Below are positions 19,482-43,821 of a DNA stretch of 64,000 bases, piece after piece. The stretch comes from Pararhizobium sp. YC-54 (GTDB lineage: Bacteria > Pseudomonadota > Alphaproteobacteria > Rhizobiales > Rhizobiaceae). Position 1 is the stretch's first letter, and every line of letters starts with the position of its first letter. The notes below the pieces were generated by a model. It did not search any database. It worked only from the letters and a program-made list of their open reading frames with translations, and was not told where the DNA came from. The stretch lies in assembly GCF_025847205.1 (NCBI RefSeq), contig NZ_JAOYTH010000001.1, positions 496,001 through 560,000 on the forward strand, in the 5' to 3' direction. The position numbers and the translations under genes were made by a program.

Positions 19482-19556
19482 GCGCCCTTCGTCTATCGGT
19501 TAGGACACCAGATTTTCATTCTGGGAAGAGGGGTTCGACTCCCCTAGGGCGTACCA
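19482..19556 (+). tRNA. tRNA-Glu (TTC anticodon), copy 1
   Basis: A 75-base cloverleaf ending in encoded CCA. The acceptor GCGCCCT pairs with AGGGCGT (one G-U). The anticodon loop is TTTTCAT with anticodon TTC. The gene body is identical to the copy at 19745-19819. Confidence 0.96.
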
Positions 19557-19744: not shown

Positions 19745-19819
19745 GCGCCCTTCGTCTATCGGTTAGGACACCAGATTTTCATTCTGGGAAGAGGGGTTCG
19801 ACTCCCCTAGGGCGTACCA
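19745..19819 (+). tRNA. tRNA-Glu (TTC anticodon), copy 2
   Basis: It has the same 75-base sequence as copy 1, again with encoded CCA. It lies 263 bases from copy 1, start to start. The two share about 45 bases of upstream sequence but not the sequence after the gene. Confidence 0.96.
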
Positions 19820-40486: not shown

Positions 40487-40672
40487 CGACCGACCTCCTT
40501 GCATGCGCGTGCTGCGCAACACATATCATAGCCGTTCGCAATTCCTAGAGAAGCGCGTGACCAGATGTTCGTGCCTGCGGGAGATCCACGGTGCGGTCAT
40601 CGTTAACGGAATATGAAGAGTTTCGTGCGAGCCTCCAGCGTGAAGGCAGGCATGGGATGAATCGCAGGGCTT

Positions 40673-40697
40673 ATGCAAAATTTGCATGTCATCCATG
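40673..40697. promoter_or_regulatory. TGCAT-N7-ATG box upstream of tandem small RNAs
   Basis: ATGCAAA-A-TTTGCAT (40673-40687) is an inverted repeat, and TGCAT-N7-ATG (40683-40697) overlaps it. A related box lies before each DUF1127 gene. From the TGCAT to the -10 CTATAT at 40732 the distance is 49 bases, the same as at 41377. The form fits a LysR-type binding site; in Brucella, VtlR (LysR family) is known to activate abcR2 and DUF1127 genes. Confidence 0.55.
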
Positions 40698-40709
40698 ATG
40701 ATATTGCAC

Positions 40710-40737
40710 TGCACAAATCGCAAGCGGTCACCTATAT
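40710..40737 (+). promoter_or_regulatory. Predicted promoter ahead of small RNA 1
   Basis: The -10-like CTATAT is at 40732-40737, with a weak -35 region at about 40710-40715 (TGCACA, 16-base spacer). It would start a transcript near 40744. If correct, small RNA 1 has a leader of some 110 bases before its first hairpin, or is processed. Confidence 0.45.
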
Positions 40738-40857
40738 TGAACTCAAGAAGACGGGACGAGATCAGCGCAAGCGATCGGGGCCGTCAGCGGCAAGGCCAGC
40801 CGCTTCCGCTCAGAAGTGGAAAAGGCCAGCGGACTGAAAGGTTCGCTTCATAGAATT

Positions 40858-40977
40858 CGGAGTGGCGCACTCCTCCTCCCAGCGCCGCTCCGATCCGATG
40901 GGCAACACTCCTCCTCCCAGTTGCTTATCACCATAAATGACGCCCGCTGGACCTCCTCCCCCAGCGGGCGTTATTCG
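40858..40977 (+). ncRNA. Small RNA 1 with three anti-Shine-Dalgarno hairpins (AbcR/alpha-r15-like)
   Basis: Three hairpins are visible. Hairpin 1 (40858-40892): CGGAG and GGCGC pair with GCGCC and CTCCG, loop ACTCCTCCTCCCA. Hairpin 2 (40902-40924): GCAAC/GTTGC, identical 13-base loop. Hairpin 3 (40941-40970): ten-base stem CGCCCGCTGG/CCAGCGGGCG, loop ACCTCCTCCC, followed by TTATTCGTTT as a Rho-independent terminator. The loops are complementary to Shine-Dalgarno sequences. Tandem RNAs of this design in Rhizobiales are AbcR1/AbcR2 (alpha-r15), Hfq-dependent repressors of ABC-transporter mRNAs; the loop form also resembles the CcsR RNAs of Rhodobacter. The 5' end is uncertain and may be as far up as 40744. 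Confidence 0.8.
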
Positions 40978-41144
40978 TTTCAAGAACTCCCCCGATAAGC
41001 CTACCGCTTTCCGTGCGGCGCCTGCACGGATGATCAAATTTTGTGCGCCTGAAAAGCAAGAACGGCGCAGCCATGCATCCGGCACATAGGTGCCATTCGC
41101 CATTGGCTCTACCCGTTTCCAATCGGCGGATTTATATTCAGGAC

Positions 41145-41268
41145 AACTTCGGGGCTGCGCACTCCTCCTCCCAGCGCGCCCTGATGGGATCGGCAACACT
41201 CCTCCTCCCAGTTGTCGATCAGAACAAGCAACGCCCGCCGGACCTCCTCCCCCGACGGGCGTTGTTTT
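41145..41268 (+). ncRNA. Small RNA 2 with three anti-Shine-Dalgarno hairpins (tandem copy)
   Basis: Tandem partner of the RNA at 40858, same design. Hairpin 1 (41152-41181): GGGC, a bulged T and GCGC, pairing with GCGC and GCCC, loop ACTCCTCCTCCCA. Hairpin 2 (41188-41220): GATCGGCAAC/GTTGTCGATC with one G-U pair, identical loop. Hairpin 3 (41229-41261): a CAACGCCCG-type stem with one mismatch, loop ACCTCCTCCC, then GTTTTTTG. A -10-like TTATAT at 41132-41137 would start it near 41145, giving about 124 bases, normal for AbcR. Stems differ from copy 1 but all loops are kept, which shows selection on the loops. Confidence 0.82.
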
Positions 41269-41376
41269 TTGTTCATCACCCTTTGCAATATCCAGCGCTT
41301 CATTGATTTGGCAAACGCGCACGCGCACCGAGTTTGGTCAAATCGTGACCAGAAAGCCTAAAAGGTTTGCAAGAAC

Positions 41377-41393
41377 TGCATGGGTGCGATGCA
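41377..41393. promoter_or_regulatory. TGCAT-N7-ATGCA box upstream of first DUF1127 gene
   Basis: CTGCAT and ATGCAG form an inverted repeat with a seven-base spacer. It matches the TGCATG-N4-C-N-ATG form before the small RNAs. The box lies 49 bases from the -10 CTATAT at 41426, as in the small RNA promoter, i.e. about -61 to -45 from the predicted start, the usual place for a LysR activator. Confidence 0.55.
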
Positions 41394-41403
41394 GCAATGT
41401 CTC

Positions 41404-41431
41404 TGTCATTTTCAAGAGCCAGGGCCTATAT
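41404..41431 (+). promoter_or_regulatory. Promoter of first DUF1127 gene
   Basis: A -35-like TGTCAT (41404-41409), 16 bases, and -10 CTATAT (41426-41431). Transcription would start near 41438, about 50 bases before the ATG. Confidence 0.5.
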
Positions 41432-41490
41432 TCCAACCATCAGATGAGGGCCAGCAAAGGGTGCTGGCAAACCTAGAAAGGACCAGCATC

Positions 41491-41634
41491 ATGAACATTG
41501 CTCGCTCATTCAACAATTGGCGCAAGTACCGTCAGACCTGCAACGAACTCGGCCGCATGTCCGACCGCGAACTGAACGACCTCGGCATCGGCCGTGGCGA
41601 CATCCAGTACGTTGCCCGTCAGGCAGTCAAGTAA
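41491..41634 (+). CDS. DUF1127 small protein, first paralogue
   Basis: A 47-residue basic protein made of one DUF1127 domain. It begins MNIARSFNNWRKYRQTCNEL and has the family core ELxxMSDRELNDLGIGRGDI. An AAAGGA lies 9 bases before the ATG. In other alphaproteobacteria DUF1127 proteins bind RNA (CcaF1 in Rhodobacter) and influence phosphate and carbon metabolism. It lies about 220 bases after the second anti-SD small RNA, on the same strand, with its own promoter and terminator. The shared upstream box suggests joint control with the small RNAs. Confidence 0.9.
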   Translation: MNIARSFNNWRKYRQTCNELGRMSDRELNDLGIGRGDIQYVARQAVK

Positions 41635-41644
41635 GTCTCGCAAC

Positions 41645-41713
41645 CAGCCGGTTCTTCCGGCTGACGCGCAGCGACCAAACGCCCTCCGGTTCAAACCGGC
41701 GGGCGTTTTTTTT
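41645..41713 (+). terminator. Terminator of first DUF1127 gene
   Basis: Two hairpins follow the stop. CAGCCGG/CCGGCTG lies at 41645-41663; then AACGCCCTCCGG/CCGGCGGGCGTT with one mismatch at 41678-41706 is followed by a run of eight T. The second is a clear Rho-independent terminator. Confidence 0.85.
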
Positions 41714-42025
41714 CGTCCAGATTCCCCCTGCAGGGTTCCCGTTTGCGTTTGGCGGATAATCCGACCGCCAGAGCACAGATCAACCATAGCTTTCGATGCA
41801 GCGCAGCATCTCTAAGGCTGCCTTTTTTCCTTGCATAGACACATCCGCAGCGTCGTGTCGCGCAAGCCGCACACCGCCTGTACCGTCGCGCAAATTCGCC
41901 ACTAAAAACACGCCAAAAAAACAAACAGTTAAAACGAAGACCGTATCCACGGGGACAACCATTAACCTATGGCTTCTTTTTCAGCATAGACACTGATTGC
42001 TCAGCGAAGCATCATTGCAATGCAC
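41714..42025. other. Non-coding stretch between the two DUF1127 genes
   Basis: No gene or RNA is recognised here. There is an imperfect repeat of the box type (GATGC at 41795-41799, GCATC at 41806-41810). The second half is AT-rich relative to the surroundings and may hold further promoter elements of the next gene. Confidence 0.5.
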
Positions 42026-42046
42026 AAATGCATAGCAGATGCATTT
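42026..42046. promoter_or_regulatory. AAATGCAT-N5-ATGCATTT box upstream of second DUF1127 gene
   Basis: A perfect eight-base inverted repeat with a five-base spacer, a stronger form of the TGCAT...ATGCA boxes at 40683 and 41377. It lies about 100 bases before the second DUF1127 start. No clear CTATAT -10 is found at 49 bases, so the promoter geometry differs. Confidence 0.5.
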
Positions 42047-42143
42047 TCTTTGCACTCCATCTTTTCCCGCGAAAGGCGTACAAAGGTTTCAACGAAGCAG
42101 GCAATCACTGCACTGCTCATTTGTATCGCTCAAGGAAAAGATC

Positions 42144-42287
42144 ATGAACCCGATTCGTATGGCTAAAAGCTGGATCAACTACCGCCGCACCGTTGCTGAA
42201 CTGGGCAACCTGTCCAACCACGCTCTGACGGACATCGGTATCACCCGCTTCGACATCCGCAACATTGCTTCGCGTTCCTTCCGTTAA
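42144..42287 (+). CDS. DUF1127 small protein, second paralogue
   Basis: A 47-residue protein, same length as the paralogue at 41491. It reads MNPIRMAKSWINYRRTVAEL and has the core ELGNLSNHALTDIGITRFDI, ending in a basic RSFR. AAGGAAAAG lies just before the ATG. The two paralogues differ at roughly half of their positions, so the duplication is old. It has its own box upstream and terminator downstream. An RNA-binding role is inferred from the family. Confidence 0.9.
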   Translation: MNPIRMAKSWINYRRTVAELGNLSNHALTDIGITRFDIRNIASRSFR

Positions 42288-42311
42288 TCGGATCAGGAAT
42301 GTCGAGGGACT

Positions 42312-42339
42312 AAAAACGGCACCACTGGGTGCCGTTTTT
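42312..42339. terminator. Terminator after second DUF1127 gene
   Basis: AAAAACGGCACC and GGTGCCGTTTTT pair around four bases, with T-run on the plus strand and A-run upstream, so it can act in both directions. Confidence 0.9.
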
Positions 42340-42399
42340 GATTCCAGGACCGAGCAGAACCGGTTCCCTTCGCGCCCGCCTTGCTCTAAATAACGGCTC

Positions 42400-43821
42400 A
42401 TGACAGACACATCTTCCTATTCTCCCGTTCACGTCATCGGCGGCGGCCTCGCCGGCTCCGAAGCCGCCTGGCAGATTGCCTCGGCCGGCATACCGGTGAT
42501 CCTCCACGAGATGCGCGGCGTGCGCGGCACGGACGCCCACAAGACCGACGGCCTTGCCGAACTGGTCTGCTCCAACTCCTTCCGCTCCGACGACGCCACC
42601 AGCAATGCGGTTGGCGTGCTGCATGCCGAGATGCGGCTTGCCGGTTCGCTGATCATGTCCTGCGCCGACAGGAACCAGGTTCCGGCCGGTGGAGCGCTCG
42701 CGGTTGATCGCGACGGTTTCTCCGACGCCGTGACTGCGGCAATCGACGGCCATCCGCTGATCACCGTCGTGCGCGAAGAGGTGCCGGGCCTGCCGCCGAA
42801 GGACTGGGATCTCGCCATTATCGCCACCGGTCCGTTGACGGCGCCCTCCCTTGCCAGTGCGATCCAGGCGGAAACCGGCGCCGATGCGCTGGCCTTCTTC
42901 GATGCCATCGCCCCGATCATCCATACCGAAAGCATCGATATGGACATCTGCTGGTTCCAGTCGCGCTACGACAAGGTCGGACCGGGCGGAACAGGCAAGG
43001 ACTATATCAACTGCCCGATGGACGAGGCGCAGTACAATGCCTTCGTCGACGCATTGATTGCCGGCGATAAGACCGGCTTCAAGGAATGGGAAGGCACGCC
43101 CTATTTCGATGGCTGCCTGCCGATCGAGGTCATGGCCGAGCGCGGACGCGAAACCCTGCGTCACGGCCCGATGAAGCCGATGGGCCTCACCAACGCCCAT
43201 AACCCGGCCGTCAAGGCCTATGCCGTCGTGCAGCTTCGCCAGGACAATGCCCTTGGCACGCTCTACAACATGGTCGGTTTCCAGACGAAGCTGAAATACG
43301 GGGCGCAAGCGGAAGTGATCCGCATGATTCCGGGGCTTGAGAAAGCCGAATTTGCCCGCCTCGGCGGCCTGCACCGCAACACCTACATCAATTCGCCGGT
43401 GCTGCTCGATAAATCACTGACGCTGAAATCACGGCCAGGCTTGCGATTCGCCGGCCAGATCACCGGCTGCGAAGGCTATGTCGAAAGTGCCAGCATCGGT
43501 CTGCTCGCCGGCCGTTTCGCTGCCGCGGAGCGCAAGGGCCAGCCGCTGCCGCTGCCTCCGGAAACCACCGCCTTTGGCTCGCTGCTCAATCATATCACCG
43601 GTGGCCATATCGTTTCGGATGACGAACCGGGAAAACGCTCTTTCCAGCCGATGAACATCAATTTCGGCCTGTTCCCGCTGCTCGAGCCGGGCGCGATCGT
43701 CAAGCCGGAAGGCGTCAAGCGCTTCCGTGGCAAGGACAAGACCGTGATGAAGAAGCAGCTTGTGGCGCAACGGGCGCTTGAAGATTGTGCGGCCTGGCTG
43801 AAGGCGGATCAATCCGCCTGA
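42400..43821 (+). CDS. trmFO: tRNA (uracil-54-C5)-methyltransferase, folate-dependent (TrmFO)
   Basis: A 473-residue flavoprotein that makes ribothymidine at position 54 of tRNA using methylene-tetrahydrofolate. The N-terminal FAD motif is [15 protein letters not shown]. The family signature ([19 protein letters not shown]) with an invariant Cys is at about residues 54-72. Further marks are [16 protein letters not shown] and [18 protein letters not shown]. Alphaproteobacteria such as this use TrmFO in place of TrmA. Length is slightly above the Gram-positive form (about 435). It is alone, after the DUF1127 terminator. Confidence 0.95.

Follow-up and report, generated by a model that had tools for sequence, protein, structure and literature searches.

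In the genome of Pararhizobium sp. YC-54, two small RNAs (RNA1 and RNA2) and two short DUF1127 proteins (DUF1127-1 and DUF1127-2) are encoded in this order on the forward strand, between a divergent gene for a DUF2157 membrane protein and trmFO. The locus lies within a stretch of 64,000 nucleotides (nt), hereafter the window, which covers positions 496,001 to 560,000 of contig NZ_JAOYTH010000001.1; coordinates are those of the window. Sequence analysis suggests that this is a CIN1-type locus in a split layout, with the RNAs first, and that LsrB (the VtlR orthologue) very probably co-activates at least RNA1, RNA2, and DUF1127-1. DUF1127-2 perhaps joins the regulon. The same type of promoter site, belonging to this one redox-sensing regulator, is found at three or more of the four genes, which are therefore probably switched on together. 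The elements concerned are as follows.

40674-40699, + strand: LsrB/VtlR-type site of RNA1, TGCA-N6-GCAT (40674-40687) overlapping GCATGTCATCCATG (from 40684), located by matrix and motif
40733-40738, + strand: -10 hexamer of RNA1, TATATT, 49 nt after the box start; predicted transcription start at about 40744
40852-40976, + strand: RNA1, an alpha-r14 small RNA (NfeR1/CcsR-like) with three anti-Shine-Dalgarno (anti-SD) hairpins; Rfam ar14, RF02344
41084-41098, + strand: LsrB/VtlR-type box of RNA2, ACATAGGTGCCATTC, matrix rank 4
41133-41138, + strand: -10 hexamer of RNA2, TATATT, 49 nt after the box start
41144-41267, + strand: RNA2, an alpha-r14 small RNA; Rfam ar14, RF02344
41368-41393, + strand: LsrB/VtlR-type site of DUF1127-1, TGCA-N6-GCAT (41368-41381) overlapping GCATGGGTGCGATGCA (from 41378), matrix rank 1
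41427-41432, + strand: -10 hexamer of DUF1127-1, TATATT, 49 nt after the box start
41491-41634, + strand: DUF1127-1, 47 amino acids (aa), 7 of them Arg; PF06568, 61.9 bits
42144-42287, + strand: DUF1127-2, 47 aa, 7 of them Arg; PF06568, 50.3 bits

An earlier note on this DNA had described two RNAs followed by two DUF1127 genes on one strand, and this is confirmed by the Rfam ar14 and Pfam PF06568 matches. Both RNAs match RF02344 over its full length (1-123 of 123), at 122 bits for RNA1 and 109.2 bits for RNA2 against a cut-off of 58.8 bits. The two proteins are DUF1127 members, being above the Pfam cut-off of 23.3 bits and rich in arginine; NCBIfam yielded no family for either, and no solved structure matching DUF1127-1 was found at E-values up to 1. 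Each RNA folds as three hairpins (z of -9.84 for RNA1 and -5.89 for RNA2) with the motif CCUCCUCCC unpaired in the loops, which bears out their earlier description as anti-SD RNAs. The label AbcR, also given to them, had to be abandoned: they are alpha-r14 RNAs, and AbcR corresponds to ar15 (RF02345), which has no match above the cut-off in the window and five copies elsewhere in the genome. The start of the locus had been placed at 40673, a position that falls at the promoter site of RNA1 and not at RNA1 itself. Profile matches in the whole genome number four for ar14 and nine for DUF1127.

The LsrB/VtlR box is GCAT-N3-TG-N3-T (PMC7486931). In S. meliloti, the promoter PabcR1 carries an LsrB box at -61 to -49 and abcR1 is a target of LsrB (PMC8844928); nfeR1 is bound and activated by LsrB at TGCA-N6-GCAT and repressed by NtrC (PMC10746234). 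A scoring matrix was trained on 22 AbcR promoters, the box-bearing ones among 29 from other genomes, with the present genome left out; the training rows were therefore chosen by the published consensus. As a positive control, 26 of 34 AbcR upstream regions contain the published box, with A or G allowed as its first letter, and in 20 of the 26 it lies at -61. The matrix was run on both strands of the window (127,860 positions) and, with the -10 term included, places the sites of DUF1127-1 at rank 1, DUF1127-2 at 3, RNA2 at 4, and RNA1 at 7; ranks 2, 6, and 9 are the minus-strand readings of the DUF1127-2, RNA1, and DUF1127-1 sites. The fourth-best score within the intergenic region is 12.5, whereas none of 300 letter shuffles exceeded 4.8.

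A predicted LsrB/VtlR box with a sigma-70-like promoter (at about -61/-72) is present in both forms before DUF1127-1, as TGCA-N6-GCAT before RNA1, and as an ACAT variant of GCAT-N3-TG-N3-T before RNA2. The starts of site and -10 hexamer are 49 nt apart in each case (40684/40733, 41084/41133, and 41378/41427), and for DUF1127-2 the corresponding pair is either 42009/42058 or 42030/42079. CTATATT is found at the RNA1 -10 position in 8 of 11 hand-chosen aligned loci. There are four occurrences of TGCA-N6-GCAT on the + strand of the window, two of which are the RNA1 and DUF1127-1 sites. The strict pattern, consisting of the box plus TATNNT, has five matches in the 6.2-Mb genome, including those before DUF1127-1 and before an ar14 copy on contig 12; the reversed control gave none.

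The association of the two kinds of gene was examined in 61 genomes, each from a different genus of the family, without anchoring on trmFO. Matches to ar14 occur in 60 of these genomes and matches to DUF1127 in 59. The pairing counts cover the best 150 ar14 and the best 150 DUF1127 matches listed, weak matches being outside them. Among these, 91 of the 150 ar14 copies have a DUF1127 match within 1.5 kb, where about 0.3 would be expected; 90 of the 91 pairs are on the same strand; and pairing is seen in 51 of the 56 genomes that have a listed ar14, in some at several places (for example, on three contigs of genome G017). The adjacency of ar14 and DUF1127 is beyond chance. A chance adjacency limited to this strain, which the earlier note had named as a refutation, is contradicted by at least 91 pairs in the family and by the closest named relative by trmFO, Rhizobium sp. 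Root1334 (97%), whose locus L177 has the four genes in identical order. The survey was restricted to the family because ar14 is scarce in a class sample of 57 genomes, being above the cut-off in one (the present genome) and at E ≤ 0.001 in six including it. The association has already been published as the "CIN1 locus", credited to Reinkensmeier and Giegerich 2015 (PMC10253847).

Among the listed pairs, the nearest DUF1127 gene is upstream of ar14 in 68 of 91 cases and downstream, as in the window, in 23. In 34 of the 68 upstream cases, ar14 starts 28-46 nt past the end of the DUF1127 domain match. A second set of 80 named loci was anchored on trmFO, that is, picked by synteny, and 71 of these have a DUF1127 match. 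They comprise 24 loci of operon layout (DUF1127 first), 19 of split layout (RNA first, window-like), 28 with DUF1127 only, one with RNA only, and eight with neither, in a classification that demands three exact motifs per RNA and misses RNAs with two. Split loci derive from Rhizobium, Sinorhizobium/Ensifer, Shinella, Mycoplana, Ciceribacter, and their kin, and operon loci from Mesorhizobium, Phyllobacterium, Brucella/Ochrobactrum, Oricola, Kaistia, and others. Mapped on a trmFO tree without regard to direction, and for operon and split loci alone, the two layouts are separated by one step; adding DUF1127-only as a third state raises the count to 13 changes. This is a quick gene tree with SH-aLRT (Shimodaira-Hasegawa-like approximate likelihood ratio test) support only, in which 18 of 78 inner branches fall below 80 and the operon row L252 sits on a long branch. 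The loci with DUF1127 only (among them L180, L183, L200, L208, and L211) include some from Agrobacterium and Rhizobium, and the first DUF1127 gene of L208 is perhaps atu1667, which is a guess on our part. In such loci the RNAs may have been lost or have decayed repeatedly.

The promoter sites recur in these relatives. The 99% level of the matrix score is 9.4, as set from 2,483 background stretches. The first DUF1127 gene reaches it in all 24 operon loci, in 17 of 19 split loci, and in 23 of the 27 DUF1127-only loci that were scored; in split loci the first RNA does so in 15 of 19 and the second RNA in four of five. Of the 19 split loci, 14 have separate sites at this level for DUF1127-1 and one or more RNAs, and eight have them for DUF1127-1 and two RNAs. 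The strict pattern has 43 matches in the 1.6 Mb of named loci (reversed control: none), of which 39 precede a called DUF1127 or ar14; three of the remaining four (in L202, L204, and L212) belong to loci with a second RNA of two motifs. In the survey genomes the strict box precedes 32 of the 88 DUF1127 genes near ar14, five of the 39 that were read among 62 DUF1127 genes far from ar14, and 19 of 91 ar14 copies, against about 1% of letter-shuffled upstream regions. The alignments used for inspection were hand-picked and hold 11 rows for RNA1, seven for RNA2, 15 for DUF1127-1, and 15 for DUF1127-2.

A number of observations weigh against co-activation by LsrB. Ranked by box alone, the four sites stand at 1, 6, 10, and 63; the last is RNA1, for which the -10 term therefore matters. 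RNA1 of the closest relative, L177, scores 7.0 and is thus under the 99% level, as are the first RNA in four and DUF1127-1 in two of the 19 split loci. The stricter pattern of box plus TATNNT is matched in no more than 15 of the 19 loci with split layout, 13 of the 24 with operon layout, and 10 of the 28 with DUF1127 only. All locus sets are related by descent, and the counts are not independent events. Another ar14 copy of this genome (L004, C1:121338-121455) has no LsrB-type box in the preceding 320 bases.

The upstream region of the second DUF1127 gene belongs with these points. It contains two further elements.

42009-42055, + strand: TGCA-rich site cluster of DUF1127-2, with GCATCATTGCAATGC (42009, not conserved), a minus-strand box at 42016-42031, and the block TGCACAAATGCATAGCAGATGC (42021-42042)
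42058-42084, + strand: two candidate -10 hexamers of DUF1127-2, CATCTT (42058, 49 nt after 42009) or TACAAA (42079, 49 nt after the GCAT at 42030)

Both hexamers are poor, being far from TATAAT. Before the second DUF1127 gene of split loci, a sense site reaches the 99% level in only three of 19 and the 99.9% level in none; on the minus strand, a box at the 99% level is present in 10 of 38 loci with a second DUF1127. A strongly conserved block, TGCACAAWYGCATRGCAG followed by GC, is found upstream of this gene in 26 of the 38 loci; it differs from the LsrB site and occurs once in the genome when two mismatches are allowed. The block TGCACAAATGCATAGCAGATGC may be a compressed LsrB site or may serve a different regulator. 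The proposal of the earlier note that the locus forms one regulon is supported, at the level of sequence, for RNA1, RNA2, and DUF1127-1, on AbcR-like promoters, equal spacing, and recurrence in relatives; the site of DUF1127-2 is high-scoring and not conserved.

The candidate regulator is encoded elsewhere in the genome by a LysR gene (302 aa; Pfam HTH_1 and LysR_substrate) situated between trxB, the thioredoxin reductase gene (TIGR01292, 395.1 bits), and two tandem ar15 RNAs. The order in A. tumefaciens is trxB-vtlR-abcR1-abcR2 (PMC7486931). The best solved relative of the protein is 9hh1_A (E-value 1.8e-184), which is named merely a LysR regulator, and none of its best 25 NCBIfam matches is above the cut-off; the name "LsrB" is therefore based on gene order and family membership. 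VtlR of A. tumefaciens binds atu1667 and switches it on; this gene is described as a homologue of small Brucella proteins, in a paper that does not use the term DUF1127 (PMC7486931). In B. melitensis, VtlR raises AbcR2 and three DUF1127 genes (PMC12595884). The presumed action of LsrB in Pararhizobium sp. YC-54, like all protein roles considered here, is drawn from such relatives: LsrB on nfeR1 and abcR1, VtlR on DUF1127 genes, and anti-SD repression by NfeR1.

The best-supported reading is that each of the two NfeR1-like alpha-r14 RNAs and each of the two DUF1127 genes has its own promoter region. LsrB would activate RNA1, RNA2, DUF1127-1, and perhaps DUF1127-2, with GCAT (ACAT in RNA2) positioned 49 nt before the -10 hexamer. 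The loops of the RNAs would mask the Shine-Dalgarno sequences of transporter and nitrogen-control mRNAs, and the DUF1127 proteins would work alongside them, with RNA or a sensor kinase as their target.

The window has short DUF1127 genes adjoining RNAs that we count as CcsR-like, partly as an assumption of ours beside the shared loop motif, and on this footing it belongs to the CIN1 loci. Those loci likewise combine short DUF1127 genes with CCUCCUCCC-loop RNAs in alphaproteobacteria (PMC10253847); in the window, by comparison, the RNAs come first and the DUF1127 genes lie downstream, each with its own promoter site. The loop motif is common to ar14 and CcsR RNAs (PMC3927594), and NfeR1 of S. 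meliloti (Smr14C2/SmelC397) is an ar14 member (PMC7143759). NfeR1 resembles the window RNAs in its alpha-r14 family, in TGCA-N6-GCAT upstream of the -10 hexamer, and in three anti-SD loops. The window differs in having two tandem copies, a leader of about 107 nt before RNA1, and no NtrC motif (TGC-N11-GCA) in 40560-40745; the motif was also lacking in the 10 relatives scanned. The ccaF1-CcsR1-4 operon of R. sphaeroides is alike in combining DUF1127 with anti-SD RNAs. It is, however, a single co-transcript with an RpoHI/RpoHII promoter and an RNase E cut (PMC10253847), whereas the window has separate sites, LsrB-type boxes, and sigma-70-like -10 hexamers, as judged from the letters, and falls outside this operon type. 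A single co-transcript of that kind was rejected for the window on the RNAs-first order and the separate predicted promoter sites. The VtlR regulon of Brucella and Agrobacterium has the same box, GCAT-N3-TG-N3-T, as well as an AbcR RNA and DUF1127 genes; there the RNA named is AbcR (alpha-r15), while in the window it is alpha-r14 and shares its locus with DUF1127. AbcR1/2 (alpha-r15) are likewise anti-SD RNAs with the same promoter architecture, in a different Rfam family.

The pairing and each regulator link are already known separately; the test of "one regulon" is new here. No paper naming both "NfeR1" and "DUF1127" was found by a search that most subscription papers lie beyond. In a comparison not extending to the 2015 CIN1 and 2021 CcaF1 papers, no report was found that the units of one such locus singly carry the same LsrB-type promoter, or that single LsrB-type promoters accompany the layout change.

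How the RNAs and the proteins relate to one another is less certain than their co-activation. It is possible, if short of probable, that they form parallel arms without direct contact, in which LsrB would induce both the RNAs, as a damper of nitrogen control and transport (NfeR1 acts on ntrBC), and the DUF1127 proteins, as a damper of phosphate control through PhoR. In S. meliloti, NfeR1, itself activated by LsrB, silences ntrB (PMC10746234) and represses transporter mRNAs through its loops (PMC7143759; PMC10746234). Three small DUF1127 proteins of A. tumefaciens bind the sensor kinase PhoR; members from Sinorhizobium, Rhodobacter, and E. coli restore pstS levels, and CcaF1 itself complements the phosphate defect (PMC12501420). 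Duplexes of the RNA loop with the two DUF1127 leaders amount to -5.6 and -4.9 kcal/mol, weaker than the median of -6.0 kcal/mol for 69 mechanically chosen open reading frames (ORFs), and targeting of the DUF1127 mRNAs by the RNAs is not favoured. Parallel arms would, on the other hand, leave an adjacency over so many genera unexplained. This adjacency is what a circuit like that of CcaF1 would account for, with DUF1127 proteins binding the adjoining RNAs, steering their maturation or decay, and hence being kept beside them. It is also the mechanism put forward in the earlier note, whose suggestion that the protein tunes RNA stability draws on Rhodobacter CcaF1 and goes further than the evidence. 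CcaF1 of R. sphaeroides does bind RNA and promotes CcsR maturation (PMC10253847), both window proteins are rich in arginine, and the 28-46 nt spacing in half of the listed upstream cases is as in a co-transcript. Such a circuit nevertheless appears doubtful in the window, where the RNAs come first with their own promoter sites, so that there is no obvious need to free them from a DUF1127 mRNA. Further points against it are the binding of PhoR by the Agrobacterium proteins, the reported failure to find RNA binding by Salmonella YjiS (PMC12501420), and the 28 of 80 loci in which DUF1127 is present and no three-motif RNA was called, mostly with high promoter scores.

The same promoter site might also be read by another LysR protein. 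That a regulator other than LsrB reads the shared elements is improbable, LsrB/VtlR binding to such boxes having been shown for nfeR1, abcR1, and atu1667 (PMC10746234; PMC8844928; PMC7486931); in its favour, the box is degenerate, with ACAT in RNA2 and no TG in RNA1, and the conserved block of DUF1127-2 is unmatched by the AbcR matrix. Least credible of all is an incidental adjacency, in which a conserved intergenic region before trmFO merely collects small genes. Some persistence of order is expected among the 80 named loci, picked as they were by synteny, but the unanchored survey found the pairing in nearly all genomes with a listed ar14 and in some at several places.

Co-activation by LsrB can be extended into a broader scenario that we regard as rather unlikely in its entirety. 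A two-armed brake under LsrB would let a redox signal lower nitrogen control and uptake through the RNAs, and phosphate control through DUF1127 acting on PhoR. The operon layout would be the older one, its order having been flipped in a single ancestor shared by Rhizobium, Sinorhizobium, and their kin, with each part gaining a copy of the same promoter, so that an operon became a regulon in place. Co-activation brings together three lines of research, on NfeR1 RNAs, on DUF1127 proteins, and on the LsrB/VtlR regulator. If it is true, work on mutants in nfeR1 or in DUF1127 genes ought to take account of the respective other arm and of the shared regulator, and the dispute over RNA or kinase as the DUF1127 partner could be approached at a locus where candidate partner RNAs adjoin the protein genes.

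The remaining features of the locus are the following.

40744-40851, + strand: leader of RNA1, about 107 nt from the predicted start to the first hairpin, z of -3.08
41677-41712, + strand: terminator-like hairpin with T-run 3′ of DUF1127-1, fold -22.3 kcal/mol, z of -4.92
42311-42340, + strand: terminator-like hairpin 3′ of DUF1127-2, fold -19.8 kcal/mol, z of -5.52
42400-43821, + strand: trmFO, the synteny anchor, outside the regulon claim; NF003739, 674.7 bits

Given its leader, RNA1 may arise here as a longer precursor. The leader is similar in L177 and L178, shorter in L181 and L190, and nearly absent in L206. The third hairpin of RNA2 with its T-run resembles a terminator; the T-run after the last hairpin of RNA1 is poor, and read-through into RNA2 is for that reason possible. 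The hairpins after RNA2, DUF1127-1, and DUF1127-2 were called from folds and are absent from the listing of a simple terminator scan. The duf1127_1 gene of S. meliloti has an attenuator leader with an upstream ORF, starting 279 nt before the gene (PMC12218461). This arrangement was rejected for the window genes, since their predicted leaders are only about 50-75 nt long.

The ar14 copy on contig 12 (L265, C12:91178-91301, minus strand) has TATATT 48 nt after a strict LsrB box, with a further CCTCCTCCC stretch ahead. Two extra ar15 copies, L263 (C20:99500-105000) and L264 (C7:302500-315500), have strict boxes at -61 and lie about 3 kb and about 10 kb, respectively, from further DUF1127 matches; by this proximity, AbcR and DUF1127 may be linked on these contigs too. 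Elsewhere in the window, two tRNA matches (19482-19553 and 19745-19816), 263 bases apart, have identical letters in their alignments, possibly the result of a recent duplication.

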